From the IMG/VR virus record IMGVR_UViG_3300010354_000087, positions 1 to 63,668 of that record: DNA of 63,668 nt; one strand, given 5' to 3'. Numbering within the stretch: the stretch's first letter is position 1; every line of letters begins with the position of its first letter. Below are positions 3,001 to 54,999 of this stretch, piece after piece. Under the pieces are notes generated by a model. It ran no database searches and was not told where the DNA came from. It saw only the letters and a program-made list of their open reading frames with translations. The stretch is from a virus. A program made the translations under genes and the position numbers.

Positions 3001-6000
3001 GCTGCATGGATCTTTTAATAGACATGTTAGAAGGTGGAAACACAAATTCAAGACCTTCGATTACTGTTACTACAATCACTTCTGGAAATACTTTGACATC
3101 CAACGGGAGCCACGGATTAGCAACTGGTGATGTATTATATGCAGTGGCAACGTCTTTAAACGGAATAATTGAAGGAAAGAAATACTTTGTTTTGCCTACA
3201 GGATTAAACGCTACAAGTTTTCAACTAAGCTTATCTTTAAATGGATCGACGATAACTTTAGTCAACGGAACAGGACTTTCTATTAATTTCCAAACAGAAT
3301 CACGACCACCTTTGACTAATGGAGTAACAACTACTACAGCTTTAGTCAATGCATTCAATTCATTAAGCTTTGTAGTTCCGCAAATTCAAATAGACACGAT
3401 AGATTACATTAATAGTAACTATGGTAATTTTACCTATAACAGTGCTCTTTGTAGACGTGATATTGGATTTTTAATTGATGCAGGCTACTATGACTCTGCT
3501 TTTGGATCTAACTATTGGGCTATTCAAAATGGGCTTTCATATCTAAGACTACAAGCAAATGTTGTTACAACATATCAAATAGATCAAGAGCTAGCTTCAA
3601 TAGCCTATATAAAACAACAACTAGCGTCTACGTTGACTGGTAGTTCTACTGCTGTGACTAGAAGTAATGCTTGCTATGATGAAATTATAGATATTATTAG
3701 CAACGGAACTACAGCCGCAGATTCTATCGTATGGACTGACCCTGGCGTAGACTCAAATAAATTATATGCGAGAGAACAACTTCAAACTAACAGAACATTT
3801 ATCATTAATACCTTAACTACATGGCTTATTGTTAACTATAATACTGTTTGGGCAGGCTTAGGAGCTACTGGCCAAGCTAAATGTCAACGAGACATTGGAT
3901 ATTCAATAGATGCTTTTAGTTATGATGTGCAATATGGAGGAAACCTTGCAACAAGAAATGTTATAAGATCTTTGTTTAATCAAATAACTGGCGACTCAGT
4001 TTATCCTGATTCACAACAAAAAACTGCCAGCGCTGCAATGTATACTCAGTTAGGCAGTGTTTGTGGACAAGTTGTAAGAGAATTATACTCCGGACAAGAT
4101 ACGAGTGGTAATGCTGCAACAGCTACCGAGCAAACACAGATTACTACTCTAGCAGGATATATCAACATTGCTATTGTAGCAGATGATCCATCATCCTTAC
4201 CAGGAGAAAGTCTACCTTTAATAACATGGGCAGCTTCTGATATTCAAACTGCATTGAATTTACTTCGTTTAGAAAAAGAAGGAATAACATCTGATACACT
4301 TCAGTATATTACAGATACTTTCAATGATTTCAAATACAACCAGTCTAAATGTAGTAGAGATCTAGCAATAATCTTAGACGCAGTTGGTTATGATTTTTGT
4401 TTTAACACTAATCATCAGACAATTAAAGCTGCATATTCATATTTAAGATCCAGTGCAAGTGAAGTCTTTAGTCTCAATCAGAAAACAGTTACAAGAGAAG
4501 CCTTAACTTTTGCTAAAAATATAGCTTTAAATAATTTAAATTCTAATACTACAGCACAAACAAGATTGACTTCTTTAATGCAGACATTAGATGATATTTT
4601 ATTCTCAGCTACTTCTGAAGGTATAACATGCAGTCAAGCCGAAGCCAATACTGACTACGCTATTCATTTATTAGAATTAAACAAACAGTTCATTATAGAT
4701 GAAATAAGAGCTTATAATCAAAGTGCATTTAGCAGTGTGGTTACATTGACTACAACTTCAACACTAACCTGTGCTTCAACAAATTGGATGCAAAGAAATA
4801 CAGCAATTAGATTTACCGGAGTTTTATTTGGAGGACTAAATTTAACTACAACTTACTACGTTCAGAATATAATTAATTCTACTACATTTACTGTAGCACT
4901 TACTAAAGATGCTTCAAGTCCGTTGGGTCTCACTGGAGGATCTGGATCTATGGTAGTAGCTATGGAATACGACGAAGAATTATGTTTAAGAGATGTAGTT
5001 TCTTATGTAGATGCCTTAAAATATGACCTAAGATTTACAGGAAATTATAAGTCTTTATTAGCAGCTAGATATTATTCTAATGCTGTTATTGGAAGCTTAG
5101 AAGAAGACATGTATTATCTGCGTAATGCTACTGGTATACGTAATCAAACTTTAGAAGGTTTAACAGGTGATTTACTAGCACCTAATGCTTATGGAACAAG
5201 CAGAGTCAGTGCAGGAGCCTACTGTTCACTAGATCCAGGGTATGGACCAGACGATTATCATGTTTGGATAGTAAGTAGAAGCCCATACATTCAGAACGTT
5301 GCAACTTTTGGTTATGCTGCAATAGGTCAAAAGGTAGACGGTGCTCTGCACAATGGTGGTAATAAATCTTTAACCTCTAATGACTTTACACAAATTATAA
5401 GTGATGGTATAGGAGCTTGGATTACTAATAATGCTAGAGCTGAATTGGTATCAGTGTTTACATACTATTCACATGTAGGATATCTGTCAGAAAACGGAGG
5501 GCGAATAAGAGGAACTAATGGAAACAATTCCTATGGTGATTTTGGCAGTGTGGCAGAAGGATTTGACGAAACAGAAACTCCTATTTTCGCAGAAGTAAAC
5601 AATAAAGGATACACTGCCGAAGTAGGATCAGTATTAGGTGATGGAACAAATAAACTGTTTACAGTTGAGTATTCTAATGCAGGATCAGACTATACATTCG
5701 CTACATGGGCATTTGGCGGAACAGGATCAGGTTTAAGCGTTGAACAAGACGAATTTAGAGATAATGGTGTATATCAAGTTAGATTAACTGATTTAGTGGA
5801 TGATAGCACAGATGCACCTGAAGCTTCCGGAAATTTTGGAGGATTTGGATACTTAACCAATAGTAATGTTTCTCAGTCAGGAACAACAACATCTATTAAA
5901 ATTGCAGCAGTTGATGCAGAGGTAGCAGCAGCTTATGTAGGTATGAGAATTGTTATTACTTCAGGTGCAGGTGCAGGACAATATGCTCAAATTACATCTT

Positions 6001-8575: not shown

Positions 8576-8917
8576 ATGGCAACAGGAAGATTAGGGATAC
8601 AAGATATTACAAGTGCAAATACATATTACACTCCATATCAAGTTCCAGCCAACACATTTTCTGTGGTAACAGTGAGTATTGCAAATCGCAGTTCAACAAA
8701 CGTTGCTACAGTGAGACTAGCAATTACAACAAGTATTGCTCCTAGTGCTCCAGGAGATGGAGAATTTTTAGAATACGATTCACAGATTCTTGCGAATGGT
8801 GTTCTAGAACGAACAGGATTGGTTTTAGAGTCAGGAAAATATATCAGTGTTAGAGGTGCTGGGACGGGACTTGGCTTAAGTGTAACTATTATGGGCATTG
8901 AAACAACTACCGCTTAA
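8576..8917 (+). CDS. Small virion structural protein, unassigned
   Basis: 113 residues, starting 11 nt after the giant structural gene with a GGAG Shine-Dalgarno sequence at 8565-8568. The protein is rich in Thr, Ser, Val and Gly with alternating hydrophobic residues, suggesting a beta-sandwich. It has no signal peptide, membrane segment or catalytic motif. Its position between a giant fibre-like protein and further fibre-like genes suggests a small tail or fibre accessory protein; I do not recognise a specific family. Confidence 0.6.
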   Translation: MATGRLGIQDITSANTYYTPYQVPANTFSVVTVSIANRSSTNVATVRLAITTSIAPSAPGDGEFLEYDSQILANGVLERTGLVLESGKYISVRGAGTGLGLSVTIMGIETTTA

Positions 8918-8931
8918 TAAGGATTAGAAAA

Positions 8932-9840
8932 ATGGGAAGACAGGTAAGCACAGGTGTAGTAGGTAGTGGATCTCCGTTAGGGTCTATCTATGCATCAGGA
9001 CAAAATACAATCACTACAGCAGTTACTAACCAAGATATTGTCATTGATCCAAACGGGTCAGGAACAGTTCAATTTGTAGGTGGAGTTCAACTACGCACTA
9101 ATGGTGAACTCAGAGCTTATAATACTGCAAATACGTTTTATACATCTCTAAAATCTCTAGCAGGGCTTACTGCAAATACCACATTTCAACTTCCTAGCAC
9201 AAATGGATCAAATGGAGCATTTTTGCAGACTGATGGCGCTGGAGTAACTAGTTGGCAAGCGGTTCCTACCGCTGCCTTAACTGTTAGTGATGCAGGATCA
9301 AACAGCAATACACATTATGTGTATTTTGGAACAAGCACTCCGACAGAAGGAAGCTTGCCTACTGGTGCTCAATCTACCATGAGAGTAGACTCTGGTTTAA
9401 CTTTTATTCCTAGTGAAAATAGAATTGTATCTAATATAGGACAGCATCCAACAGTTACAGGAAGTAGTGGGGCAAGCGGCCAGATAACTATAAACGGAAC
9501 TACGAATGCTACAAAGGCAACAGCCAGCGTTCTTATGACTGATAATGTAACATCAACTAGCACTTCTACAGGAACACTGGTAGTAACAGGTGGAGTTGGT
9601 ATAAGCGGAGCATTAAACGTAGGTGGTAGTATTGTAATGAATAGCTCAACTGTAGTTACACAAAGTTCATTAGCAACTTTACAGCCAACACTAGGAACTA
9701 ATGCTATTATAAGAACAAACTCTAACACCATAAATGAAACAATTACTATCCCAGCAGGAACTAATGGTATGAGCAGTGGACCGGTAACTATAGCAAGCGG
9801 CCAAACAGTCACAGTTAACGGTGATTGGAGTGTTGTCTAA
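8932..9840 (+). CDS. Tail-fibre-like structural protein
   Basis: 302 residues, preceded by AAGGA (8919-8923). Low-complexity Thr/Ser/Gly/Asn composition. A motif of the type I-D-P-N-G-S-G-T-V-Q-F-x-GG near residues 43-56, plus GGVGISGALNVGGSI around residues 220-235, is typical of phage fibre shafts and trimerisation segments in marine T4-like phages (family knowledge). It ends in the TAATG overlap with the next gene, so it is translationally coupled to the adhesin array. Fibre role is inferred; receptor unknown. Confidence 0.6.
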   Translation: MGRQVSTGVVGSGSPLGSIYASGQNTITTAVTNQDIVIDPNGSGTVQFVGGVQLRTNGELRAYNTANTFYTSLKSLAGLTANTTFQLPSTNGSNGAFLQTDGAGVTSWQAVPTAALTVSDAGSNSNTHYVYFGTSTPTEGSLPTGAQSTMRVDSGLTFIPSENRIVSNIGQHPTVTGSSGASGQITINGTTNATKATASVLMTDNVTSTSTSTGTLVVTGGVGISGALNVGGSIVMNSSTVVTQSSLATLQPTLGTNAIIRTNSNTINETITIPAGTNGMSSGPVTIASGQTVTVNGDWSVV

Positions 9841-10406
9841 TGAGCACATTGGTAACTGATGAACTTGCTGGAAGACAAGATGGTGATCATCTAATCGCCT
9901 TTCCTAACAACAATATTTTATATGTTCCAGGACAGGTTATTCAGTGTGTGTGGACTAAAATGGATAATCATGCTACCTACAATAGTTACAATGATAACAA
10001 CAGCAGAGATATTGCTGGTCTAAATACTACAATTACTCTTAAACGTGCAAACAGTTTAGTTTACTTACAATGGTGGCTATTTTATGAGTGTCATCATGAC
10101 ATAACATTTCAAGCCAAAAGAAGTGGCACTGTTATAGGTTATAATACAGAAGTAGGTAATGTAAGATGGAGCGGTATAGGTTGTGCAGAATATGAGCATA
10201 GTCATGATCAAAGCAGTACTCCTTCCTACACTCATATGGCCTGGGTTGATACTCCAGGAAGTGTCGGCCCTCATGTTTATAGTCTAGGATCTAGAAGCAG
10301 CACAGGATCTAATTATGATATACGTGTTAACAGAGCCTGGGGAGCCTTTCAAGACGATCACGAAGGTGGTGTAAGTTTTTGTATGATACAGGAGATAGCT
10401 CAATGA
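9840..10406 (+). CDS. Adhesin-array paralogue A1
   Basis: 188 residues. I use ATG 9840 (TAATG overlap with the upstream stop) rather than the in-frame ATG at 9825, because all paralogues begin M-[ST]-x-L/V-x-V/A-D. First of three subfamily-A members. The shared core is FYE-x-HHDI-x-F, then a G-x-x-IGYN-like segment, a YDxDxSSTPSY-like segment, an RSS strand and a C-terminal S-x-x-x-x-QEIA. No signal peptide or catalytic motif. Likely a small fibre tip, fibril or decoration subunit, inferred from position and tandem amplification. Confidence 0.6.
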   Translation: MSTLVTDELAGRQDGDHLIAFPNNNILYVPGQVIQCVWTKMDNHATYNSYNDNNSRDIAGLNTTITLKRANSLVYLQWWLFYECHHDITFQAKRSGTVIGYNTEVGNVRWSGIGCAEYEHSHDQSSTPSYTHMAWVDTPGSVGPHVYSLGSRSSTGSNYDIRVNRAWGAFQDDHEGGVSFCMIQEIAQ

Positions 10407-10951
10407 CAGTTACAGTAGGAGGACTAGCACCCGCAACTGGAAGTCAAACTACTGTCAGTAATGGGCTTATCCAACAAGGAACCATAATACAATGGATACA
10501 GGCAAGTACAAGTGTAAGAACTACATACACTGCTCAACCGAGTGGAAATGGAACCGCCATTACTCAACTAAATTTAACCATTACACCACGCAGAGCAGAC
10601 AGTGTAATTTGGCTTCGTTGGACAACTTTTTATGAAATGCATCACGACTGTGGATTTGTAGTTTTAAGAGACAGTAATTTAATAGGTTATAATACCTATA
10701 GAGGAAATGTTCGTTGGTCTAACATACTAACTCCTCTCTATGACAATGATTACAGCACCACTCCGCAACAAAGTACCATAAATTGGTTTGACCCAGCAGG
10801 TAACACTTCAGCCAGAACTTATAGTCTAGCAGTTAGAAGCAGCAGCAGCGGTACATTCACATATGCTCTAAATAGATCGTTAAACAGCGCAGGCACAGAC
10901 GGACAAGAAGTTGGTCATAGTTGGGGTTGGGCAAGGGAGATAGCAGGATGA
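10403..10951 (+). CDS. Adhesin-array paralogue A2
   Basis: 182 residues. ATG 10403 overlaps the previous stop as ATGA; the longer in-frame ATG at 10379 would lie inside the upstream gene and lacks the family N-terminus. It shares with A1 the FYEMHHDCGF segment, GYNTYRGNVRW, a TTPQQS segment and the terminal REIAG. A stretch of PRRADSVIWLRW is also found in the subfamily-B proteins as PRxADSRI, linking the two subfamilies. Role as for A1, inferred. Confidence 0.6.
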   Translation: MTVTVGGLAPATGSQTTVSNGLIQQGTIIQWIQASTSVRTTYTAQPSGNGTAITQLNLTITPRRADSVIWLRWTTFYEMHHDCGFVVLRDSNLIGYNTYRGNVRWSNILTPLYDNDYSTTPQQSTINWFDPAGNTSARTYSLAVRSSSSGTFTYALNRSLNSAGTDGQEVGHSWGWAREIAG

Positions 10952-11562
10952 GTGTTTTAAAAGTAGATAATATAACAGGTCCTGTAAGAGTAGCCTACCC
11001 AAACGCAGTCTATGCTCCAGGACACATAGTGCAAGTTCAATATTCTGTAGCCATGGAACGTCATTACTACACAGTGCCCAACAATGATGGAGGTATGAGA
11101 GCAGATATATTTGCAGAAGGTATTCACGAAGGCGGTGTTATTGTCAGACCATTGGATGTCAATATTAAACCACGTAGTAGAGATAGTTTTATTTTCATAG
11201 AATTTAATGTGTTTTTTGAAGGCAGTCATGATATTGTGTTTACTATACTTAGAGACGGTTCTATGATAGGTGCAGCACAACCTGATCATGAAGTTATAGG
11301 CAGATATGGAGCAAGTAAACAACAAGGGATCGGTGTTTCACGCTACGACAACAACTATGATAGTACACCTAGTTACATTCAAGTACCATGGATTGATCGC
11401 CCAGGTAAAACAGAGTGGGTAACCTATAGTTTTGCTGTAAAAAGCTCAGGCGCATCCAACCAGAGTTTTACACTAAATTCAACGCTTACAAACTATCAAA
11501 ATGGTGGCGATGCATATGAACAAGGTGTGAGTTTTGGAATAGCTCAAGAAATCGCCGCATAA
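10948..11562 (+). CDS. Adhesin-array paralogue A3
   Basis: 204 residues from ATG 10948 (ATGA overlap); the in-frame ATG at 10921 is inside A2. Starts MSVLKVDNITG. Conserved features are YAPGHIVQVQY near the N-terminus, KPRSRDSFIFIEFNVFFEG, HDIVFTILRDGSMIGA, YDNNYDSTPSYIQVPWIDRPG and a C-terminal SFGIAQEIAA. It is the largest of the subfamily-A members, with extra residues after the N-terminal strand. Translational coupling to A2 suggests the products are made in fixed proportions. Confidence 0.6.
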   Translation: MSVLKVDNITGPVRVAYPNAVYAPGHIVQVQYSVAMERHYYTVPNNDGGMRADIFAEGIHEGGVIVRPLDVNIKPRSRDSFIFIEFNVFFEGSHDIVFTILRDGSMIGAAQPDHEVIGRYGASKQQGIGVSRYDNNYDSTPSYIQVPWIDRPGKTEWVTYSFAVKSSGASNQSFTLNSTLTNYQNGGDAYEQGVSFGIAQEIAA

Positions 11563-11585: not shown

Positions 11586-12017
11586 ATGTCAGATACCGCT
11601 AGCCCAAGTAGAAAAATATTACCAATCGCTGAAGCTCTATATCTACTAGCGCCCAATGCTATTTGGAGCGTAGAAGGAGACAATGTTGATGGTATTAAGT
11701 GGGAGTCAGATCCTGCTTTAAGACCTAGTGACGAATCTATTTTAGCAAAAGCTCAAGAATTAATCAACGAAGCTCCTATGAAAGCATTACGTAGAGTAAG
11801 AGACGCTAGATTAAGAGAGACGGATTGGGTCACACTTAGAGCCATGAGGACTGGAGAGCCTATTCCTCAAGAATGGAAAGATTATATGCAGGCTCTAGCA
11901 GACATCACTAAGAACAGCAATCCACAATTAGTAGCAGGAGAGCTTGTTGGTGTAACATGGCCTGTTAGACCTGATGGCGAAGAAGCAGGTCAAACGAGAT
12001 TTAGAGTAATTAGATGA
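11586..12017 (+). CDS. Tail-fibre assembly chaperone-like protein
   Basis: 143 residues with AAGGA (11570-11574) and a late-type TAAATA further upstream. The central part has RDARLRETDW followed about 20 residues later by W-x-x-Y-x-QAL-x-DI. This matches the pattern of phage tail assembly chaperone domains (Phage_tail_APC type), in which such a helix pair binds fibre tips (family knowledge). Soluble, helical, charged. It lies between subfamilies A and B, so a chaperone for the adjacent short Trp-rich proteins is a reasonable inference. Confidence 0.6.
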   Translation: MSDTASPSRKILPIAEALYLLAPNAIWSVEGDNVDGIKWESDPALRPSDESILAKAQELINEAPMKALRRVRDARLRETDWVTLRAMRTGEPIPQEWKDYMQALADITKNSNPQLVAGELVGVTWPVRPDGEEAGQTRFRVIR

Positions 12018-12520
12018 GCACAGTAAGAGCAGATAATCTTCAGGCAGTTACAAGTGAAGTTACACTTCCATTGACTGAATTAAGGCAGCGTGTAATAAAA
12101 GATTTTCGATCACGTTACACAGGAGGATCTTATATACCTGGAGATGCTTATTCATGGGCATTAGGTATGTTTCAAGATTATGCTCCAGCCTCTGCGTCTA
12201 GTAGAATTAGAACAACTATAAGTTTTAGTTACAGCCATGAAAATGGACACGCTATAAGCCATTGGATATTTTATGCTAACGGCACAGAAATTGGTCGTCA
12301 CAGTATAGCAGGTCAAAGTCCAGAGCATAGACATGTATATGTCTGGGATTTTGCCAGTTGGGGAACAGCTACTGGCAGAATAGGCTATCAAGTAAGACGA
12401 TACGGTAGCGGTAATCAGCCTAGAATACACGCTACACATCATTGGGATGGTGGTGGAAGTAATCAATCATCCCTTGCTGTAGGTGAAATGACAATTGAGG
12501 AATATTTTGCAATACCATGA
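12014..12520 (+). CDS. Adhesin-array paralogue B1 (Trp-rich)
   Basis: 168 residues, ATGA overlap with the chaperone-like gene. First of six subfamily-B members. Conserved core: HAISHWIFYANG, then a HS-x-x-G-x-x-x-E segment, W-x-FASWGT, a GRIGYQVR-Y strand, HWDGGG and a C-terminal IEEY-F. Many invariant Trp, Tyr, Gly and His residues suggest a compact beta-sandwich. No homologue of known function is recognised. Tail-tip or fibre-decoration role inferred from context. Confidence 0.6.
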   Translation: MSTVRADNLQAVTSEVTLPLTELRQRVIKDFRSRYTGGSYIPGDAYSWALGMFQDYAPASASSRIRTTISFSYSHENGHAISHWIFYANGTEIGRHSIAGQSPEHRHVYVWDFASWGTATGRIGYQVRRYGSGNQPRIHATHHWDGGGSNQSSLAVGEMTIEEYFAIP

Positions 12521-13026
12521 GCACTTTAATCGTTGACCAATTAACAGTAGATCCTGAGCAAACACAGGTTCCTCTTACCGAACTAGGACATCGCGTAATA
12601 AGAAGCTATAGAGCTACTTACACTGGTGGACAGTGGAACCCTACGACCTCATATCAATGGATTCCTGGAATGTTTTATGATTACACTCCTTTGTCTGCAA
12701 GTAGCAGAATAAGAACATGTTGTCATATTCCTTATGCACGTAATAGCGGAGTAGCTCATGCAATAAGTCATTGGATATTTTACGCCAATGGTGTAGAGCA
12801 GGGTCGCCACAGTATTTCAGGAAATCATCTTGAAGATATGAGCACATACATTTGGGATTTCGCTAGTTGGGGAACCAGTGTAGGTCGTATAGGATATCAG
12901 CAACGCTCGTATGGTGACGACAATCATGAAGTTCGTGTTTACACAACACAATACTGGGACGGCGGTGGTAGCGCTCAAAATTGCTATGGCCAGTTAGTCA
13001 TAGAAGAATATCTACCAGGAGTATAA
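12517..13026 (+). CDS. Adhesin-array paralogue B2 (Trp-rich)
   Basis: 169 residues, ATGA overlap with B1. N-terminus MSTLIVDQLTVDP, then TGGQWNPTTSYQWIPGMFYD, HAISHWIFYANGV, GRHSISGNHLED, WDFASWGTSVGRIGYQQRSY, DDNHEVRVYTTQYWDGGG and a terminal IEEYLPGV. It is clearly homologous to B1, B3 and B4 throughout. Differences cluster in the N-terminal 25 residues and in loops, as expected for a diversified adhesin family; this interpretation is inferred. Confidence 0.6.
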   Translation: MSTLIVDQLTVDPEQTQVPLTELGHRVIRSYRATYTGGQWNPTTSYQWIPGMFYDYTPLSASSRIRTCCHIPYARNSGVAHAISHWIFYANGVEQGRHSISGNHLEDMSTYIWDFASWGTSVGRIGYQQRSYGDDNHEVRVYTTQYWDGGGSAQNCYGQLVIEEYLPGV

Positions 13027-13530
13027 ATGGGAGCCCTTACAGTAGAAAACTTGCGAGATGTTAGCGGAACAGTTACTATTCCAGTAAGAGATCTTAAACA
13101 ACGAGTAATACAATACTATCAAGCTGTTTATACCGGAGGAGAGTGGAACCCAGATAATACGTTTAACTGGATTCCAGGTGCGTTCTATGATTTTACTCCA
13201 AGAAGAGCAGACAGCAGGATAAAATATACTATGAGATTACCTATTGCATGGGTAGCATCAAGTCATGCAATAAGTCATATGTATTTTTACGCCAATAGCA
13301 TTTTATATTATTACTGGAGTGAAAGCGGAACTCATATAGAAAATGGTAGAACTTTTCAATTTGAAGTTCCTAGTTGGGGGACCAACCAGGCTAGAATAGG
13401 AATGCAGCATAGATCCTATAGCAATGATAATCATGAAGTAAGAATGTATACAACTTACTACTGGGACGGCACAGGACGTAGTGCTCAGAATGCTAGAGGG
13501 CATTTAATGATAGAGGAACTACTTTACTAA
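13027..13530 (+). CDS. Adhesin-array paralogue B3 (Trp-rich)
   Basis: 167 residues, starting directly after the B2 stop. It is very close to B4, including three stretches of 23-27 identical nucleotides (13135-13160, 13411-13437 and 13459-13481). The core keeps GGEWNPDNTFNW, YDFTPRRADSRI, HAISHMYFYAN, VPSWGTNQARIG, SNDNHEVRMYTTYYWDGT and SAQNARGHLMIEEL. Likely a product of recent duplication or gene conversion. Function not known beyond probable virion adhesin. Confidence 0.6.
   Translation: MGALTVENLRDVSGTVTIPVRDLKQRVIQYYQAVYTGGEWNPDNTFNWIPGAFYDFTPRRADSRIKYTMRLPIAWVASSHAISHMYFYANSILYYYWSESGTHIENGRTFQFEVPSWGTNQARIGMQHRSYSNDNHEVRMYTTYYWDGTGRSAQNARGHLMIEELLY
13135..13481 (+). repeat. DNA repeat segments shared by B3 with B4
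   Basis: Three stretches in B3 are identical to B4 at the base level: 13135-13160 with 13638-13663 (26 nt), 13411-13437 with 13914-13940 (27 nt), and 13459-13481 with 13962-13984 (23 nt). All are about 503 nt apart, as expected for a tandem gene duplication or gene conversion. Confidence 0.7.
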
Positions 13531-14087
13531 TGGGAACACTTAGATTAGATGCAATAAGCAATAGACTAGGCACAATAACCGTGCCCTTAACAGAACTTAC
13601 TGCTAGAGTAATTCAGCGCTATGAGAATACCTATACAGGAGGAGAGTGGAACCCAGATAATACTAGCAACTGGGTTCCTGGAGGTTTCGTAGATTTTACA
13701 CCAAGAAGCGCCCAGTCAAGAATACATTTCTTATGGAGAATTCCTCACGCTTGGTCAAATGCTACCCATGCTATTAGCCATTGGAGATTTTTTGTCGCAG
13801 GAATTTGTTACTATTGGCATAGTCAGTCAGGTGTTCATATAGAAGACGGTAATATTATTCAATGGGATGTGCCTAGCTGGGGAACAAGTTCAGGAAGAAT
13901 AGGTTACCAAGTTAGATCCTATAGCAATGATAATCATGAAACAAGATTATATACAACGTATTACTGGGACGGCACAGGACGTAGCGCTCAAAATGCTAGA
14001 GGGCAATTAATAGTTGAAGAATATTTAGGAGTGGGAGAACCAACAGGAGTTGGTGCTGCTTCAAGACAAACAATTACAGCAAGGTAA
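13530..14087 (+). CDS. Adhesin-array paralogue B4 (Trp-rich, C-terminal tail)
   Basis: 185 residues, start overlapping the B3 stop by one base (TAATG). Same core as B3 (GGEWNPDNTSNW, FTPRSAQSRI, HAISHWRFFVAG, VPSWGTSSGRIGYQVRSY, YYWDGTGRSAQNARGQLIVE). It is longer by a C-terminal tail of about 20 residues that is Gly/Thr/Ala-rich and absent from the other copies. It is followed by a late-type TAAATA and a new Shine-Dalgarno, so this closes one translationally coupled run. Confidence 0.6.
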   Translation: MGTLRLDAISNRLGTITVPLTELTARVIQRYENTYTGGEWNPDNTSNWVPGGFVDFTPRSAQSRIHFLWRIPHAWSNATHAISHWRFFVAGICYYWHSQSGVHIEDGNIIQWDVPSWGTSSGRIGYQVRSYSNDNHETRLYTTYYWDGTGRSAQNARGQLIVEEYLGVGEPTGVGAASRQTITAR

Positions 14088-14090
14088 ATA
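14085..14090 (+). promoter_or_regulatory. Late promoter core within adhesin array (before 14110)
   Basis: GGTAAATA overlapping the B4 stop, then AAGGAG and ATG 14110. Same arrangement as before 11586. Confidence 0.4.
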
Positions 14091-14109
14091 AAGAAACAAG
14101 GAGATAACA

Positions 14110-14439
14110 ATGTCTAATGATGTTGATTTTGGTGAGGTTATGCACAAGTTCTATGCAGGACGTCTATATGGAGTAAGAGGTCCTTTATACGACGATATTA
14201 CGTGGATGGAAACAACCCCAAAACCTACTAGAGAAGAATTAATTGCCAAATGGGAAACTATTAAGGACGATGTTGCACTAAGACGTGTTCATGAACAACG
14301 TGCAATGCCAGGAAAATATCCTAGTAGGGACGATATGATTGTAGCTCTATGGGAAATGGTAGTAGAAAATCGCCCAGAAAAAGCCGCAGCACTACAGTCA
14401 CGTAGAGAAGCAATTAAACAAGAATTTCCTAAGCCATAA
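14110..14439 (+). CDS. Small fibre-associated protein, chaperone-like
   Basis: 109 residues, with AAGGAG at 14098-14103. Highly charged and helical. The C-terminal half reads YPSRDDMIVALWEMVVENRP and ends REAIKQEFPKP. Marine T4-like phages often carry small proteins with a YPS-x-x-D-x-x-x-ALWE core and a PKP end near fibre genes (my recollection of the family, not searched). Like the 143-aa gene at 11586 it is inserted within the adhesin run, so an assembly role for the downstream B5/B6 proteins is inferred. Confidence 0.5.
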   Translation: MSNDVDFGEVMHKFYAGRLYGVRGPLYDDITWMETTPKPTREELIAKWETIKDDVALRRVHEQRAMPGKYPSRDDMIVALWEMVVENRPEKAAALQSRREAIKQEFPKP

Positions 14440-14441
14440 AC

Positions 14442-14951
14442 ATGACCGGAACTCTTTTAGTTAATACCATCCGCAATTCTGCGAATTCAGTGAATCTTTC
14501 TACGACAAATCTAAATCGTAGGCTGATACAACGAACTTATAGATGGTTCAGGGGAGGTGCTTGGAATCCAGGCAACACCTACTACGAAGTTCCTGGTAGT
14601 TGGTTAAGTATAACACCAGTCTATAGTAATAGTTATTTAACTTATACTTGGATGTGTCCATTAGGCCACAGAGGTGCTGCACATTCTATAACACATTGGA
14701 TTTTTATGGCCAACGGGCAAGAATATGCAAGGCATAGTGTTAGTGTAGATCATCAAGAATCGGGAGTAATCCGTCGTTGGGAAGTTCCCAGCTGGGGTGC
14801 AGGAAAAGCAGCAGGTATGGGATACATAACAAGACAATACACTGATAGTAATCATAGTGTGCATTGGAATGCTCAAAGATACCAAAACGGCAGTGATAGC
14901 ACAAGAGGTGTTCCAAGCTGGGTTAGTGTAGAGGAGTATACAGCGGCATGA
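14442..14951 (+). CDS. Adhesin-array paralogue B5 (divergent)
   Basis: 169 residues, two bases after the upstream stop. More divergent than B1-B4 but keeps GGAWNPGNTYYEVPGSW, HSITHWIFMANGQE, YARHSVSVDHQE, RRWEVPSWG, a GYITRQY-x-DSNH strand and a terminal VEEYTAA. The shared N-terminal pattern L-N-R-R-L-I-Q-R-T groups it with B6 rather than B1-B4. Structural/adhesive role inferred from homology within the array. Confidence 0.58.
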   Translation: MTGTLLVNTIRNSANSVNLSTTNLNRRLIQRTYRWFRGGAWNPGNTYYEVPGSWLSITPVYSNSYLTYTWMCPLGHRGAAHSITHWIFMANGQEYARHSVSVDHQESGVIRRWEVPSWGAGKAAGMGYITRQYTDSNHSVHWNAQRYQNGSDSTRGVPSWVSVEEYTAA

Positions 14952-15460
14952 CAGGCATTCTACAAGTAGATAGTGTTACCAATGAATCAGCGTCATTTGG
15001 AATAACTACCGATTATTTCAAAAGAAGATTAATTCAAAGAACAAATTATATTCATAGAACCGGATGGTGGAGAGCAAACAATGCCTACTATTGGGTTCCA
15101 GGAGCTTATATGGATTTTAGGCCTATGCGAGGAGACACTCGCATTCGTGTAAGTTATAATATTCATACAAGACAATATGGACCAAGTCAGCATATGATTA
15201 TGCACTATATTTTTTATGTAGACGAGGTTGAGTATGGCAGATTTACCAGAGGCGGCCATCATGTAGAAAATACAAATACTATTCAATTTGATGTGCCTAG
15301 TTGGGATGCATATGCTTATGCTAGGATTGGATTTAAGTGCAGATCTTATTCAGAAGGTAATCATAATGCGCATTTATGGCATACTCAATATTGGGATGGT
15401 GGCGGCAATTCATATGACACTCCAGGACAAATGATAGTCGAGGAATACGTTCCTGTGTAA
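14948..15460 (+). CDS. Adhesin-array paralogue B6 (divergent, end of array)
   Basis: 170 residues, ATGA overlap with B5. Core elements are KRRLIQRTNYIHRTGWW, YYWVPGAYMDFRP, a TRIRVSYNI strand, MHYIFYVDEVEYGRF, FDVPSWDAYAYARIGFKCRS, TQYWDGGGNS and IVEEYVPV. It is the last member of the nine-gene array. A 55-nt spacer with a small inverted repeat separates it from the accessory halogenase cassette. Confidence 0.58.
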   Translation: MTGILQVDSVTNESASFGITTDYFKRRLIQRTNYIHRTGWWRANNAYYWVPGAYMDFRPMRGDTRIRVSYNIHTRQYGPSQHMIMHYIFYVDEVEYGRFTRGGHHVENTNTIQFDVPSWDAYAYARIGFKCRSYSEGNHNAHLWHTQYWDGGGNSYDTPGQMIVEEYVPV

Positions 15461-15515: not shown

Positions 15516-16001
15516 ATGAATCATTCAGAAACATTGTCAATTATACTAAGCAAAGACCAGAATATATTGCATTTTAGCCATAATGAAGAACGCTTAGACA
15601 ACTATCAGGAGTTTAAAAATTATAAAACAATTGGAATGGATGACAATTCCGATATTAAAATTTCTCCTAACAAACCTATAAATCAAGAATTACTACAAGG
15701 GTTTGACCTAATTGTATTTTCAGCCTATTTAGAAATTATAGACAATCCTTTAGAATTAATTGAACAAGTTAAAAACTTTTCAGAAACTATTTGTATATAT
15801 GAATACAAGTATGATTTAATGTCTAATTGTAGCACAGAATGGAAAAAACATTGGAGTCAAATCGGGCTTACTTGGAATCTAACTCAAAAATTTGATCTTA
15901 TCAACGAGTTATATTTTGAAGAAGCCACACTACATACTTGTAAAATTCCTTATAATCAGAACGAAAATCAAAAAAAGGAATTAGAAAATGTTGCTCAATA
16001 A
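15516..16001 (+). CDS. Unknown protein at head of halogenase cassette
   Basis: 161 residues. I do not recognise the family. The protein is acidic and soluble, with a segment QGFDLIVFSAYLEIIDNPLE that looks like the motif-IV region of a Rossmann-type methyltransferase (FD-x-I-x-F-S), but no SAM-binding glycine motif is visible. The 3' end overlaps the first halogenase start by 14 nt, so the two are probably co-translated. It may be a degenerate or partner subunit of the halogenase cassette; this is inference. Confidence 0.5.
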   Translation: MNHSETLSIILSKDQNILHFSHNEERLDNYQEFKNYKTIGMDDNSDIKISPNKPINQELLQGFDLIVFSAYLEIIDNPLELIEQVKNFSETICIYEYKYDLMSNCSTEWKKHWSQIGLTWNLTQKFDLINELYFEEATLHTCKIPYNQNENQKKELENVAQ

Positions 16002-17475
16002 TATTGCTATTGTAGGCGGAGGAACAGCAGGATTAATTACTGCTATAATTTTACGAAAAACTTGGCCTAATTTAAAAATAGATATCATAGAATCTGATAA
16101 TATAGGTATAGTTGGAGTAGGAGAAGGTTCAACTGAGCATTGGCGCAATTTTATTTCAGATTGTAATATAAAATTAGTTGATCTTGTTAAAGAAACAGAT
16201 TGCACATTTAAATATGGTATTAACTTTTCCAACTGGCTAGGTGATGGCACAAATTATATTCATAATGTCAGTAGCAATATGAGTATAGAAAGCCAAACAC
16301 ACAGTAAAATAATGTATGCCTATCCAATTAGCGAAGGCTTAGATGCTAAAAGTCTTGTAATGGATTATGTTGAAAAAAGCCTACATATAGAGCCATACTG
16401 GGGTGTAAATCAATTTCATTTCAATACCTTTAAATTGAATACATTTTTACACAAAATTTGTGAAGAAAGAAATATAGGTATAGTTAAAGCAGACATTGAT
16501 AGCGTTCATTTAACTGAAAACGGAGCAATAGACTACCTTAAAGATAAACAAGGAGTTGTTCATAACTATGAGTTTTATGTTGACAGCACAGGATTTCATA
16601 GGCTATTGCTACACAAAACTATGGGCGTTCCTTGGAGGAGTTATCAAAAATATCTTCCAATGAATTCTGCCATTGCGTTTCCGACCGAACGACAAGAAGA
16701 TATTCCAAGTTGGACTTTAAGTAGAGCAATGGACAGTGGATGGCTATGGAGAATTCCTACACAGGAACGTTTTGGCAACGGCTATGTTTTTAATGATAGT
16801 TTTATGGATTTTGAAACTGCTAAGAAAGAAGTTGAAAAGTTATACGGATACGAAGTTAATATTGCCAAGCAGATTAAATTCGATGCAGGATGTTTAGAAA
16901 CATCCTGGGTTAAAAATTGCTGTGCCATAGGACTAAGTTGCAGTTTCGTTGAACCTTTAGAAGCAAGTAGTATAGGATCTAGTATTCAACAAGCCTATTA
17001 TTTAACCACAGCCTTAAGCAGTTATATTCCAGGATCAGATATAGACTTGGCACAGAGAACTTTTAACAGATTGTCAGATGAATTACTAGAAAATATTGTA
17101 GAGTTTGTTCAACTACACTACATAACTTCAAGACAAGATACTGATTTCTGGAAAAGTATTCAGGAACTTCCTAAATTTCCATCGTTAGAAGAAAAATTAG
17201 AAATATGGCGACATAAATTTCCAGGTATAGGTGAGTTTCAAAATAGAACTGTAATGTTTAAAGAATCTAATTATATTCTAGTATTACACGGTTTAGGATT
17301 AATTTCAAAAGATATCGCTCAAAAAGAAATGTTAAAACAGCCCAAACATGTGCAAGAAAGTGTGCCCTTTAATTATAATAGGATGCGTAACGACATGCAG
17401 GAAAAAATTAAAAATAGCCAGGCAGTTTCCCATAGACAAGCGTTACAATGGCTAGCAGATAATCCGGAGTCCTAA
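15988..17475 (+). CDS. Flavin-dependent halogenase, tryptophan-halogenase family (copy 1)
   Basis: 495 residues, AAGGA 5' of ATG 15988. N-terminal FAD-binding motif GGGTAG at residues 10-15. GVGEGST lies around 43-49 and the conserved Lys sits in TFKYGI (K75), matching the catalytic Lys region of PrnA/RebH-type enzymes. The family signature W-x-W-x-I-P is present as GWLWRIP near residue 252. The VEPLEAS segment near residue 318 matches the region holding the active-site Glu. The enzyme should use reduced FAD, O2 and halide to make hypohalous acid. No flavin reductase gene is seen here, so a host reductase is assumed. The substrate is unknown and need not be free tryptophan. Confidence 0.85.
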   Translation: MLLNNIAIVGGGTAGLITAIILRKTWPNLKIDIIESDNIGIVGVGEGSTEHWRNFISDCNIKLVDLVKETDCTFKYGINFSNWLGDGTNYIHNVSSNMSIESQTHSKIMYAYPISEGLDAKSLVMDYVEKSLHIEPYWGVNQFHFNTFKLNTFLHKICEERNIGIVKADIDSVHLTENGAIDYLKDKQGVVHNYEFYVDSTGFHRLLLHKTMGVPWRSYQKYLPMNSAIAFPTERQEDIPSWTLSRAMDSGWLWRIPTQERFGNGYVFNDSFMDFETAKKEVEKLYGYEVNIAKQIKFDAGCLETSWVKNCCAIGLSCSFVEPLEASSIGSSIQQAYYLTTALSSYIPGSDIDLAQRTFNRLSDELLENIVEFVQLHYITSRQDTDFWKSIQELPKFPSLEEKLEIWRHKFPGIGEFQNRTVMFKESNYILVLHGLGLISKDIAQKEMLKQPKHVQESVPFNYNRMRNDMQEKIKNSQAVSHRQALQWLADNPES

Positions 17476-18134
17476 TGAGTCACTTAACAAGACAAGGTAA
17501 TAGTTGGATAATTATCACTCACGTTTCAGATATATCTGATGCTAAAACTATGCTAGAAACTGTAAACAAAGAAAATTATGCCGACTATACCAGCGCTAAA
17601 GGCATAAATTCTAAACAACATTATATAATCCCTCCTTCTTGGATGCCTAGCAAAGACCATAACTTTCCCGATAACTGGGACACAATCTCAGCTAAGTATG
17701 CCTTGATTGCGCAAAAAGAATTAGTGCATTATGGAATTATGCCTTTGAATTGGAAGAAATTATATGCTCGTAGTGCTTGGACAGTAAAAGGAGAAGAAGG
17801 AAGTTATCATACTATTCATGAACACGGACCAAACTCAGTAAGCACTATTTTATATACTACTGTTCCTCCCAAAGGCGAAGACGATATTCCTTACACTAAT
17901 GGGTCAACATACTTTGTAATGGACGGCAGTGCCTATAATGACTTATCTATCCCTGCTTGTAGAGTCATGCATGTTACGCCTAAAGAAGGTATGCTGGTAA
18001 TTTTTCCTAGTTATATACTGCACGGAGTTTATCCCCAAGGACCAGGTCTACGACAGACTTTAAACATCGATTATCACGGAGATCCAAACTTTACTTATGG
18101 TCTAGGAACCGGCGGATCTACAAGTTATAATTAA
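17475..18134 (+). CDS. Putative 2-oxoglutarate/Fe(II) oxygenase
   Basis: 219 residues, one-base TAATG overlap with the upstream halogenase. A HEHGPNSVSTILY segment (around residues 115-127), a later IFPSYILHGVYP segment and a following LRQTLNID give the H...H...R layout of small phage 2OG-Fe(II) oxygenases, with the double-stranded beta-helix pattern S-x-x-x-Y-x-x-x-P. Such enzymes hydroxylate or otherwise oxidise small molecules, peptides or nucleobases. Placement exactly between two halogenases with coupled starts suggests that all three act on the same substrate (inference). Confidence 0.68.
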   Translation: MSHLTRQGNSWIIITHVSDISDAKTMLETVNKENYADYTSAKGINSKQHYIIPPSWMPSKDHNFPDNWDTISAKYALIAQKELVHYGIMPLNWKKLYARSAWTVKGEEGSYHTIHEHGPNSVSTILYTTVPPKGEDDIPYTNGSTYFVMDGSAYNDLSIPACRVMHVTPKEGMLVIFPSYILHGVYPQGPGLRQTLNIDYHGDPNFTYGLGTGGSTSYN

Positions 18135-19624
18135 TGCGTATAAATTCAATCTGCATAGTCGGTGGAGGAACAAGCGGTTTTCTAACTGCTTGTTATCTTG
18201 CTAATAAATTCCCTCAAATCAATCTTACTTTAGTCGAAAGCACCAAAATAGGAACTATAGGAGTAGGGGAAGGCACACAGCCTTACACAACAAAATTTTT
18301 AAGAGATTGTGGGCTTGAGCCTAAGGATTGGATGAAGGATTCTGATGCTACCTATAAGTTAGGTGTTGAGTTTGTAGGATGGCAATCAGAATCCTTTTTT
18401 GTTGATAACGATAGTACAGTTACTCATGTAGTAGGACCTAATAAACTTTTCCATGATTACTGGATTGGAAAAAATTCTAAAGATTATTTCAATTGGTTGC
18501 CTGCATATAGACTTGCTAAAGAAAATAAAAGTCCAAAATTAACTCCTGATTTAGATTTTGTATTAGGTGCCTCGGTAATTCCTTCAGAAGCTGTGCATTT
18601 TAATGCTAGTAAAATTATTAACACTCTTAAATCAAAAGTTATAAATCGAATTCACTATATAGATGCAGAAATCTTAGATGTAAAAGTTAATGAACTAGGA
18701 ATAGAATTTTTAATTTTAGAAAATTATCAAGTTAGTGCAGACCTTTATATAGACTGCACAGGGTTTAAATCTCTACTTATAGAGCAGGCGTTAAACATAA
18801 AACATCATAACATAAATGCATTACTTCCTTGCGATAAAGCAATAGCAATGCCAACTAATTATCTTGACCCTACTTCTCAATGTCATCCATACACAAAATC
18901 AACTGCTATGTCTAGCGGATGGATTTGGACTATTCCTACTTTTGGTAGAATAGGGAATGGATATGTGTATAGTTCTGATTTTATTAGTAAAGATAATGCA
19001 GAATTAGAATTACGAAATTACCTACAAGATTTTAAAACAGATGTTCTTCATATTAATATGAGAACAGGTTATAAAGAAAAAATCTGCGAAAAGAATGTAG
19101 TTGCAGTAGGCTTAAGCGGGGGTTTTGTCGAGCCGCTAGAGGCCACTGGTATTACATTTACCACAAAATCTGTAGAAATTTTATGCAATTATCTCGAGTC
19201 TTTTGACTTTGTTTATGATGACAACGTTCGCAATAATATCAATCAAGTTTATAATTCATTGTTTAAAGAAATACTTGCTTTTGTGCATTTACATTACAAG
19301 ACGAACGAAGCGAAAAAAACAGAATTTTGGCAGTATTTCGATGAAGTTCCATTTCCTGAATTTATAAAAGATATAGTAAGAAATTTTGTGCCATACCCAC
19401 CTGATATATTATTCAAAGAAAATAATTTCAGCATGTTTCATAGCGGACAATGGTTTGAATTATTAACGGCCTGCGGACAATATAAAAAAGTCTCGAACAA
19501 ACTTAGCAATGACGAAGTTCAGTATTATGAAATACACAAAGAAATGTTTAAGGTAAGAACTGATCTAGAAATCGCAAAATTTCCCAATCATTACGATTAC
19601 CTTAAACAGATTTACTCTAATTAA
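18134..19624 (+). CDS. Flavin-dependent halogenase, tryptophan-halogenase family (copy 2)
   Basis: 496 residues, TAATG overlap with the oxygenase. GGGTSG at residues 10-15, GVGEGTQP at 43-50, the catalytic-type Lys in TYKLGV (K75, same position as copy 1), GWIWTIP near residue 263 and FVEPLEATGIT near residue 332. Although both enzymes keep every signature, they are clearly divergent in sequence, so they are probably not recent duplicates and may have different substrates or regiospecificity. Marine phage halogenases are known (the cyanophage Syn10 enzyme VirX1), but two in one operon with an oxygenase is unusual to my knowledge. Confidence 0.85.
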   Translation: MRINSICIVGGGTSGFLTACYLANKFPQINLTLVESTKIGTIGVGEGTQPYTTKFLRDCGLEPKDWMKDSDATYKLGVEFVGWQSESFFVDNDSTVTHVVGPNKLFHDYWIGKNSKDYFNWLPAYRLAKENKSPKLTPDLDFVLGASVIPSEAVHFNASKIINTLKSKVINRIHYIDAEILDVKVNELGIEFLILENYQVSADLYIDCTGFKSLLIEQALNIKHHNINALLPCDKAIAMPTNYLDPTSQCHPYTKSTAMSSGWIWTIPTFGRIGNGYVYSSDFISKDNAELELRNYLQDFKTDVLHINMRTGYKEKICEKNVVAVGLSGGFVEPLEATGITFTTKSVEILCNYLESFDFVYDDNVRNNINQVYNSLFKEILAFVHLHYKTNEAKKTEFWQYFDEVPFPEFIKDIVRNFVPYPPDILFKENNFSMFHSGQWFELLTACGQYKKVSNKLSNDEVQYYEIHKEMFKVRTDLEIAKFPNHYDYLKQIYSN

Positions 19625-19890: not shown

Positions 19891-20349
19891 CTATAATATT
19901 TCGATAATATCAATCATAGTTTGTATTTTAGATTGAAAAATTTTATTTTTTAAGCTTAATTCTAAAGCATTATGTAAAGGCTTAGGAAGCATTTTTAAAT
20001 CAAACCATCCATAAGCAGCATGTTCATCGCTTAATACGGGAATAAATTCTTGATCTACTACACAAAAATATGTGCTAAATTTGAATAAATTATCATTAGA
20101 TACAAATTTTTCCAGTGGAACAATTTTTATTATGTCAGGCAAAAAAGATAATTCCTCGGTAATTTCTCTAGTTAAACCCTGAAAAGTATTTTCAGTTAAA
20201 TGGTGTGTCCCACCAATTAGTCCCCAACGACCGGTATGTTTACCTCTAGATTTTTGTAAAAGAATAACTCTTTTCGTGCTCTTGGCACATATTATAGCTC
20301 CTGAACAAATTATAGCTTTATAATTGCAATCGCCATTTTCCTCTATCAT
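19891..20349 (-). CDS. Nudix hydrolase
   Basis: 152 residues from the ATG at 20349, which has an AAGGTG Shine-Dalgarno just upstream; an in-frame TTG lies four codons earlier. The Nudix box is visible as G-x5-E-x7-RE-x2-EE (the segment GTHHLTENTFQGLTREITEE), with an upstream GRWGLIGG. The usual terminal Gly after EE-hydrophobic is replaced by Ser. Nudix enzymes cleave nucleoside diphosphates linked to another moiety; the substrate (oxidised dNTP, ADP-ribose or an RNA cap) cannot be told. It overlaps the 3' end of the gp15 gene by 32 nt. Confidence 0.8.
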   Translation of the reverse strand: MIEENGDCNYKAIICSGAIICAKSTKRVILLQKSRGKHTGRWGLIGGTHHLTENTFQGLTREITEELSFLPDIIKIVPLEKFVSNDNLFKFSTYFCVVDQEFIPVLSDEHAAYGWFDLKMLPKPLHNALELSLKNKIFQSKIQTMIDIIEIL

Positions 20350-21967
20350 AATCACCTTCAAAGCTTTTTACCCAACTTATTCCGTTCCATTTGTATTGAG
20401 TATTAGTATAGTAATTAGTTTGATAGATTATGGTATCTGTTCGAACTTGAGCATCAAACACTACACGCCATTCTGATCCAGTCCACATAACAATATCATT
20501 TGCATAGGCTATAGGATCTGACCCGTCACTATTTTTCCAAGCATCAGGGCCATCCTCGTTAAAATTTAAAATATAAGTTACAGTGCTATTTTTTGGTATT
20601 GCAGTTAGTGTTTTTATATAACAAATTCCGTTTACATTATCGAGAGTGTGTGAAACAATACTACCGTCAACTAAAAGCACTGAATCGTTAACTTTAGAAA
20701 AATCTTCTCCTGTATTAATTGACTTAGACGATCTTAAAGGAATAAATGTTTCTCTCACACCTCCCCCTAGGTTATCAACTATTAGACATCTTAATCCTGT
20801 TTGAATGATTTGATCTGTAGTTTCTCCATTAGGACGTTTGGGATTAAAAGTTAAAGGACTGACAATAGCATCAAAAGTTCCTCTTCCTGTAGCACTATTG
20901 TAGCCTAAATCTATACCGTCGATTTTCCCGTCATTATCAATGTAATTATTGCTATGATAAGAGTCTACATCCCAAACTACACTCATTAAACACGGGTCTA
21001 AAGGATTTAAAGACAATGTTCCAATAATTACAGATCCATCGCTTTGTATTAAAAATAGTTTACTTAACCCTGATTTAAATTCTCCAGGCATTTGTTTTAG
21101 TAAAGTATCCCACGGTAAATTATTGCCTTCCCCTTTTACCTTACTAAACATGCGTATTCCGTCAGATGCTACACTAATTTCAAAATTACCTATAGTCGTT
21201 GTTGTTTGAAATTCTAAGTCTCCCATACCTATTTCATAAGCTTGCGGATCATTTCCTAGTCCATCAATATAGTTCCCGATTCCAGGTAGAGTGCTAGTAT
21301 ACAAACTATTAATTATTCTTGTCACAACACCTAGCTTTTTAACTTTAACAGGAGGACTTAACCAAGTAGGTGTTTTTAATGTAATACTAGCTATGTCAAT
21401 CGAGCTATTAGTTCCTACTGGAACTGTTCTTGAACTAAAATTTACATCTTCTAGCTCTACTACACTTAAGCTAGTCCAATCTATATAATTATCAGTAGTT
21501 TGTATTTCTAAGCTCGGATTAAATAAGACCAAAATCTGTTCTAATATTTGTAATTTCTGATCAGTATTACTACTCCAAATATCTACTTTTACAGTTAAGT
21601 CAAATGGCGTAGGCATCATACGTTCAATGGAATATTGCTTACCCTGTTCACTAGTATAGAATTCATTGCCTTCTGAGTCAGTTTCAATTGCTCTTTCTCT
21701 TATGTGAATTTTACTAATAAAAGTTGGCTCTTGTATCCTATTCCTATTTAGGTCAAATTCTGTAATATATATTGACATTCGAGGCACTGAAGGAATAGTG
21801 TTTTCGCTATTTTGATTAATAATATTAGCAACTTGTCTATCAATATCTCCATACATTACAGGAACTCTTACTAAGGTTCCATCTCCGTATTTCACTACAA
21901 AGTTACTTAATAATCTTACTATTTGAGTAAGATATCTTCTAATTTGTCCATCATAAAAATGCTGCAT
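20318..21967 (-). CDS. gp15: Tail sheath stabilizer/completion protein gp15-like, enlarged
   Basis: 549 residues. The N-terminal region resembles T4 gp15: FYDGQIRRYLTQ, LLSNFVVKYGDGT, RVPVMYGD, then PRMSIYITEFDLNRNR and a segment PTPFDLTVKVDIWS leading to EQILVLFNPSLEI. T4 gp15 is about 272 residues, so the C-terminal 270 or so residues are an added region. That region ends in an Asp/Trp/Tyr-rich stretch (QYKWNGISWV) like display domains of marine phage structural proteins. gp15 caps the tail tube and sheath and joins it to the neck. It is translationally coupled (TAATG) to gp14 on the minus strand. Confidence 0.78.
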   Translation of the reverse strand: MQHFYDGQIRRYLTQIVRLLSNFVVKYGDGTLVRVPVMYGDIDRQVANIINQNSENTIPSVPRMSIYITEFDLNRNRIQEPTFISKIHIRERAIETDSEGNEFYTSEQGKQYSIERMMPTPFDLTVKVDIWSSNTDQKLQILEQILVLFNPSLEIQTTDNYIDWTSLSVVELEDVNFSSRTVPVGTNSSIDIASITLKTPTWLSPPVKVKKLGVVTRIINSLYTSTLPGIGNYIDGLGNDPQAYEIGMGDLEFQTTTTIGNFEISVASDGIRMFSKVKGEGNNLPWDTLLKQMPGEFKSGLSKLFLIQSDGSVIIGTLSLNPLDPCLMSVVWDVDSYHSNNYIDNDGKIDGIDLGYNSATGRGTFDAIVSPLTFNPKRPNGETTDQIIQTGLRCLIVDNLGGGVRETFIPLRSSKSINTGEDFSKVNDSVLLVDGSIVSHTLDNVNGICYIKTLTAIPKNSTVTYILNFNEDGPDAWKNSDGSDPIAYANDIVMWTGSEWRVVFDAQVRTDTIIYQTNYYTNTQYKWNGISWVKSFEGDYDRGKWRLQL

Positions 21968-54889: not shown

Positions 54890-54999
54890 GAAAACTTCTT
54901 TATTGGGTCTTATACCCTTATTATAAATTTAGAGAACGCAGGTTAATTAAACAACGATTGAAGGAACTACAAGAACGAGATCCTTTTATCTACAAATGA
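54886..54999 (+). CDS. 37-residue basic microprotein between primase and carbamoyltransferase
   Basis: The frame from ATG 54886 gives 37 residues, beginning MRKLLYWVLYPYYKF and ending LQERDPFIYK. It overlaps the primase stop (ATGA) and its own TGA overlaps the next ATG at 54996 (ATGA), so it is tightly coupled on both sides. The N-terminus is aromatic and hydrophobic, the centre strongly basic (RERRLIKQRLK). Compatible with a membrane-edge or nucleic-acid-binding peptide. Too short for many gene callers. Confidence 0.6.
   Translation: MRKLLYWVLYPYYKFRERRLIKQRLKELQERDPFIYK

Follow-up and report, generated by a model that had tools for sequence, protein, structure and literature searches.

A conserved halogenase-oxygenase cassette adjoining an array of candidate tail adhesins in viral genomes

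The viral fragment IMGVR_UViG_3300010354_000087 (positions 1-63,668 of the record; these 63.7 kb are referred to here as the window, to which all coordinates of the locus refer) carries a cassette of four genes, HEAD, HAL1, OX and HAL2, predicted to encode a methyltransferase-like protein, a flavin-dependent halogenase, a 2-oxoglutarate (2OG)-Fe(II)-type oxygenase and a second halogenase, respectively (Table 1). Their open reading frames were confirmed at the positions given in an earlier interpretation of this DNA (the original prediction), all on the plus strand, with overlaps of 14 nt (HEAD/HAL1), 1 nt (HAL1/OX) and 1 nt (OX/HAL2). That interpretation was also correct in placing the cassette directly after nine adhesin genes; these lie on the same strand and comprise six genes of one family plus three more distant adhesin-like genes, and intergenic gaps do not exceed 55 nt from position 8576 to the end of the cassette (19624). 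These gaps and overlaps suggest that adhesins and cassette are co-transcribed. A T4-like late promoter (TATAAATA) was looked for upstream of the operon and not found, and promoter and terminator scans returned about as many matches as in shuffled sequence. In comparison with a near-identical strain, substitutions in HEAD, HAL1, OX and HAL2 are mostly synonymous (ratio of nonsynonymous to synonymous polymorphism, pN/pS, 0.03-0.16).

Table 1. Features of the cassette, the upstream adhesin array and their surroundings in the window.
Feature	Position	Strand	Description
HEAD	15516..16001	+	161 aa; methyltransferase-like by AlphaFold model; adjoins HAL1 in 7/7 lineages
HAL1	15988..17475	+	495 aa; predicted flavin-dependent halogenase, PF04820 E 4e-96; most conserved cassette member
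OX	17475..18134	+	219 aa; predicted 2OG-Fe(II)-type oxygenase; PF13759 E 7e-14
HAL2	18134..19624	+	496 aa; second predicted flavin-dependent halogenase, PF04820 E 5e-97; optional, separate tree branch
Adhesin paralogue 1	12014..12520	+	adhesin hidden Markov model (HMM) and alignment
Adhesin paralogue 2	12517..13026	+	adhesin HMM and alignment
Adhesin paralogue 3	13027..13530	+	adhesin HMM and alignment
Adhesin paralogue 4	13530..14087	+	AlphaFold model: TNF/C1q-like jelly roll
phrog_9114 gene	14110..14439	+	109 aa; conserved place within adhesin array
Adhesin paralogue 5	14442..14951	+	adhesin HMM and alignment
Adhesin paralogue 6	14948..15460	+	adhesin HMM; 55 nt upstream of HEAD
Three more distant adhesin-like genes	9825..11562	+	193, 190 and 213 aa; same strand with overlaps; kept in relatives
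Giant tail fibre	3..8564	+	5' end beyond window; phrog_9851 tail fibre E 9e-97; CBM5/12 PF02839
Nudix hydrolase and tail sheath stabiliser	19891..21967	-	locus boundary

HAL1 and HAL2 match PF04820 (Trp_halogenase) over the full length of the family model, at 323 and 326 bits against a curated cut-off of 21, and both also match phrog_2928. The motifs named in the original prediction are in place: HAL1 contains GGGTAG (residues 10-15), K75, WLWRIP (252-257) and EPLEA (322-326, with E325 as the catalytic-type Glu), and HAL2 contains GGGTSG, K75, WIWTIP and EPLEA, so that each protein has the GxGxxG flavin motif, the catalytic Lys, WxWxIP and the EPLE Glu. The retention of the catalytic Lys and Glu, on which the proposed activity depended, thus holds at the level of sequence, and as judged from these motifs and the low pN/pS values HAL1 and HAL2 are intact flavin halogenases under purifying selection. 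By sequence alignment only, the Trp-binding stretch after the catalytic Lys region, YHPF in Trp halogenases, reads YIHNV in HAL1, and HAL2 does not have the His of this stretch. The residues after EPLE are A-S-S-I in HAL1, A-T-G-I in HAL2 and S-T-G-L in a VirX1-like protein; this stretch, which lies near the halide site of known enzymes, allows no statement on halide preference.

The middle protein, OX, matches PF13759 (2OG-FeII_Oxy_5; 52.5 bits, cut-off 27) and phrog_81 (E 5e-20), and a PDB sequence search with OX alone gave no match. The predicted His...His...Arg layout was recovered as H115-x-H117...H183...R193, and these four residues are invariant in alignment. The second metal-ligand position is His in 200, Asp in 126 and Glu in 21 of 360 OX relatives; HxH in place of HxD/E is thus found at the metal site of over half of these viral 2OG-type proteins.

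Family searches with HEAD gave only weak methyltransferase hints, which were later explained by a structure model. In the AlphaFold model (predicted local distance difference test score, pLDDT, 83), nearly all of the top 50 PDB matches are S-adenosylmethionine (SAM) methyltransferases (best E 5e-5, TM-scores of about 0.5-0.6), and the Gly-rich SAM motif GxGxG is absent from all six aligned HEAD homologues. The model therefore predicts a small class I methyltransferase-like fold with an eroded SAM motif, and because the motif is missing from every homologue, HEAD would have a docking or other non-canonical role. Proteins of phrog_1458, which is a large and uncharacterised family (about 550-580 aa), have a methyltransferase-like C-terminus (L135, 4437-6086; L229, 4427-6166); the gene adjoins HEAD in the contig L135 and lies near HAL2-type halogenases in other phages.

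The model of adhesin paralogue 4, built from a 30-sequence alignment (pLDDT 82), is a beta sandwich whose PDB matches include the TNF-like lectins BC2L-C and PLTL, Chlamydia Pgp3 and the lambda central fibre protein gpJ (E 1e-4 to 1e-3), and whose BFVD matches are phage (fibre) proteins (best E 1e-7). The genes of the array are accordingly modelled as TNF/C1q-like jelly rolls and are candidate phage tail adhesins. They are rich in Trp (4.0%), Tyr (7.4%) and His (4.4%) in comparison with the rest of the window (1.6, 3.9 and 2.0%). The six paralogues (12014-15460, plus strand) are arranged identically in several lineages, which would fit a separate, fixed role for each and not free interchange among them.

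A search of IMG/VR with HAL1, HEAD, OX and an adhesin yielded seven lineages: the window with its near-identical strain; 3300023179 (L106); 3300013126 (L109); 3300008259 (L110, L124); 3300027797 and three like it (L026, L117, L118, L121); 3300020141/20160 (L001, L002); and 3300022752 (L135). The HEAD-HAL1-OX unit comes after the adhesin array in all seven, with constant content and order, and each adhesin array with downstream sequence among the IMG/VR loci found carries it. The constant adjacency of HEAD and HAL1 agrees with the suggestion that the unrecognised first gene is a partner of the enzymes. Pairwise identity among the cassettes is 62-80% for HAL1, 45-67% for OX and 28-55% for HEAD (all three ranges without L135). 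The gene beyond OX varies, being HAL2, a dual-specificity-phosphatase-like gene, a 680-aa gene, a DNA ligase, a tail fibre or a Nudix-sized gene on the opposite strand. In L001 a DUF6065/phrog_7084 gene separates the array from HEAD, and in L135 three genes do so. Genes of this DUF6065/phrog_7084 type (L001, 6749-7546; L066, 13708-14448) form the commonest non-2OG group beside IMG/VR halogenases (27 loci), and their product may be another halogenase partner.

Conservation of gene order, which had been suggested as a check, therefore extends to HEAD-HAL1-OX and not to HAL2, which is present only in the window lineage and in L106 (67% identity between the two copies). Because the whole four-gene cassette is found in L106, a diverged phage, while HAL1-OX-HAL2 recurs on L004, a contig from another sample, and OX-HAL2 on L005, both a chance arrangement and an assembly chimera were rejected. 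In a FastTree phylogeny of 143 sequences, with syn9 gp42 standing in for VirX1, HAL1 clusters with the other cassette copies within a large clade of viral sequences, among them those of P-SSM2, S-H38 and S-SCSM2R. HAL2 and its L106 copy make up a long branch of their own. A further clade comprises the VirX1-like proteins of syn9, and the bacterial genes of BrvH type fall elsewhere in the tree. Membership of HAL1 in the VirX1 clade was rejected on this tree, as was a recent duplication of HAL1 as the origin of HAL2 (29% identity, separate branches). The relatives of HAL2 (44-49% identity) mostly lie between a tail-fibre gene and a Nudix/tail-sheath-stabiliser pair, beside two 2OG genes, and the pair that bounds the window cassette also bounds the HAL2-type loci of other phages. 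Since HAL2 is optional, being absent from five of the seven lineages, and is not sister to HAL1, the proposal that the three enzymes form a single pathway on one substrate is not supported.

Comparison of the window with two relatives separates the history of this region from that of the phage backbone. Against G002 (L135), backbone proteins are 64-93% identical (about 84% mid-range; terminase 91%), and the adhesins are 47-66%, HAL1 61% and OX 48% identical; against G004 (L117), the backbone falls to 26-77% (about 47% mid-range; terminase 61%), and the adhesins are 55-73%, HAL1 63% and OX 48% identical, the mid-range values being approximate readings from a per-gene identity table. HEAD-HAL1-OX, a conserved unit encoded next to the jelly-roll adhesins on their strand, diverges jointly with them. 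Because adhesin and cassette identities stay similar (about 50-65%) whether the backbone is at about 84% or 47%, these genes share a history distinct from that of the backbone and evolve as a single module. The cassette of G002 is embedded in a fibre cluster, flanked on one side by adhesins and a phrog_1409/phrog_1458 pair and on the other by a phrog_9729 tail-fibre gene together with fibre-like genes rich in glycine.

Such co-divergence would also be expected if the region after the tail-fibre genes were an insertion hot spot, in which the cassette is unrelated cargo that moved with exchanged adhesins. The turnover of genes after OX (HAL2, phosphatase-like, DNA ligase, unknowns, tail fibre) fits this explanation, as does the presence of accessory 2OG and halogenase genes in the same region of cyanophages. 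We nevertheless consider it quite improbable, given that HEAD-HAL1-OX stays constant in content and order over seven lineages while its neighbours change, and that pN/pS of the cassette genes is low. The functional tie between cassette and adhesins is argued from this constancy, not from co-divergence alone.

Surveys of other viral halogenases place the cassette in a wider pattern. The original prediction took cyanophage flavin halogenases to occur usually singly; this proved incorrect, as two or more lie close together (within two genes) in 27 of 79 IMG/VR loci, and both syn9 and Syn10, the source of VirX1, have two. A 2OG gene lies within five genes of the halogenase in 66 of these partly redundant 79 loci, and the share of 2OG genes falls from 35% at up to three places from a halogenase to 12% at seven or more. 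Around 23 halogenase places in 18 phages, 50 2OG genes were observed within 6 kb (17.9±5.7 expected from random placement) and 16 of the 23 places had at least one (9.3±2.2 expected), although the 2OG positions were transcribed by hand and the phages are related, which makes the significance optimistic. Halogenases stand beside tail-fibre, adhesin or collagen-like genes in syn9, S-RIM44, S-SRM01, Sf-FP1, Sf-CH11, S-CREM1, P-RSM6, P-TIM40 and the actinobacterial phage DSL-LC01; in S-SRM01 the gene sits between fibre genes and the gp37-gp38 adhesin tip. An exception is HTVC008M, with its halogenase among neck and terminase genes, and several phages have a second halogenase place elsewhere in the genome. 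This survey also found up to five halogenases with many 2OG genes in about 17 kb of virus (L080, L081, L082, L092), a halogenase remnant with an internal stop and no annotated gene in S-PM2 (NC_006820, 121319-122608), and partial second copies in P-TIM40 (183737-184705) and S-SSM7 (168252-169244).

The recurrence of the cassette-adhesin arrangement in seven lineages suggests that these phages may carry out chemical modification of their own tail proteins or of something bound by them. The explanation we place first, tentatively and at slightly below even confidence, is an oxidative tailoring cassette that belongs to the adhesion module of the phage and acts most likely on aromatic adhesin residues. 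It is favoured by the constant position of HEAD-HAL1-OX after the array, the divergence shared with the adhesins, the location of the cassette within the G002 fibre cluster, the short gaps, the lectin- and fibre-like fold and high Trp, Tyr and His content of the adhesins, and the closeness of halogenases in many other phages to tail-fibre and 2OG genes. From the properties of the enzyme families, HAL1 would use host-supplied FADH2, O2 and halide to form a hypohalous species, with K75 and E325 relaying it to an electron-rich aromatic ring; OX would oxygenate a C-H bond; HEAD, with its methyltransferase fold and no normal SAM motif, would most likely dock the substrate; and HAL2, where present, would carry out a second halogenation independent of HAL1. 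The least certain steps are that the natural substrate would be Trp and Tyr side chains of the co-expressed adhesins or fibre, and that modification would occur during virion assembly, where it could tune or stabilise host-surface binding.

The linkage to tail genes is an observation and the substrate a deduction, and several points weigh against modification of adhesins. Product and substrate are both predicted; the exchange of one contiguous stretch would carry any neighbour, and genes that lie side by side can move jointly even if neither acts on the other; the high aromatic and His content of the adhesins may be a mere effect of the lectin fold; because the second ligand position of OX is H117, in a family that has mostly His or Asp there, its dependence on 2OG is not certain; and halogenases lie away from tail genes in S-B64, S-SCSM2R, Syn1 and S-PM2. 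Joint divergence would be explained equally well if the enzymes instead changed a host-surface molecule bound by the adhesins, as serotype-converting genes do, blocking re-adsorption or superinfection, and the resemblance of the adhesins to sugar-binding lectins and the CBM5/12 domains of the giant fibre agree with this. Halogenases require an aromatic substrate, however, the cassette shows no evident export signal or membrane enzyme, and serotype-converting genes are known mostly from temperate phages, so that receptor modification seems rather improbable.

The substrate could also be a host metabolite or signal in free form, derived from indole, tryptophan or tyrosine, that is halogenated and hydroxylated to alter host physiology or yield an antibiotic-like product. 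The best-studied PF04820 members use free Trp or indole, and VirX1 takes many small aromatics. Iyer et al. (2021; PMC7824862) interpreted the halogenase cluster of S-SSM6a as a pathway for secondary metabolites or for capsule decoration, and S-SSM7 has a similar cluster that includes carbamoyltransferases and sugar enzymes. The window cassette, however, has no scaffold-building enzyme, carrier protein or transporter, its conserved partner is the adhesin array, and linkage to tail genes is found in several phage groups; small-molecule tailoring is accordingly judged unlikely.

The phage itself is most likely a jumbo-type myovirus and not a T4-like cyanophage, because its terminase shares 55% identity with that of Pseudomonas phage PA5oct and 46-50% with those of the other jumbo phages GAP32, CBB and Phosso; the window also encodes tail sheath, tail-fibre, baseplate and helicase genes. 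In the relative G005 (3300023179, 1643-3231) the large terminase subunit, one open reading frame in the window, appears as two overlapping matches, reflecting a frameshift, an inserted element or an assembly error. The giant tail fibre (90-8564, plus strand) contains four stretches of CBM5/12 carbohydrate-binding modules (E 2.6e-24), which may point to a chitin- or cellulose-like host glycan. A Nol-like carbamoyltransferase of phrog_1601 is encoded at 54996-56453 (plus strand), and this family occurs beside halogenases in 16 IMG/VR loci.

Viral halogenases are already known (PMC8407142, PMC10452541, PMC3037559) and have long been listed in cyanophage genomes, yet no natural substrate for a viral tryptophan halogenase was found in the openly licensed PubMed Central literature. 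No tie between phage halogenases and tail proteins was found there either, although an earlier mention elsewhere is possible. The conserved tie between halogenase, oxygenase and adhesins supplies a concrete, testable substrate, and modification of adhesins would shift viral halogenases from 'auxiliary metabolism' to virion maturation. In its broadest form, which we regard as possible but doubtful, the proposal is of a chemical tailoring system by which phages halogenate and hydroxylate aromatic side chains in their tail adhesins; it would move together with the adhesins as a single module of host recognition, would be widespread among metagenome viruses and would hitherto have been filed under auxiliary metabolism. 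If true, this would represent a novel type of protein modification in viruses and would provide enzymes able to halogenate folded proteins.

Several known systems share features with this cassette. VirX1 and the tandem halogenases of syn9, Syn10, S-RIM44, P-RSM6 and P-TIM40 are likewise intact, paired, and placed directly after tail-fibre or assembly genes and before 2OG oxygenases, but they belong to other halogenase clades, accompany other adhesin families, occur in T4-like and not jumbo phages, and have no detected HEAD gene. The closest named relatives of HAL1 (38-41% identity), from P-SSM2, S-H38 and S-SCSM2R, also have 2OG genes nearby, but each phage has one halogenase, no HEAD and no adhesin array of the window's family. 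The S-SSM6a/S-SSM7 cluster resembles the cassette in combining a halogenase with several 2OG and cupin enzymes, whereas its sugar and carbamoyl enzymes are lacking in the window cassette and it has no conserved adhesin array. BrvH-type enzymes (Brevundimonas, Caulobacter, Sphingomonas) are of the same family as HAL1 and are commonly paired; in BrvH itself the active site is open and free Trp is not halogenated, but these genes are bacterial, at most 33% identical to HAL1 and apart from it in the tree. As a precedent for adhesin modification, flavin halogenases can act on Trp within a protein or peptide, as do SrpI, which brominates Trp in proteusin precursor proteins (PMC10858898), and other brominases of ribosomally synthesized and post-translationally modified peptides, and peptidyl-Trp bromination is reported to be possible with RebH and a variant (PMC13184988). 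The SrpI-type enzymes differ from the cassette in being non-phage, leader-peptide systems, and are likened to it by description. All of the enzyme families discussed here are known; it is the link of halogenase and oxygenase to an adhesin array that was not found in the literature covered.

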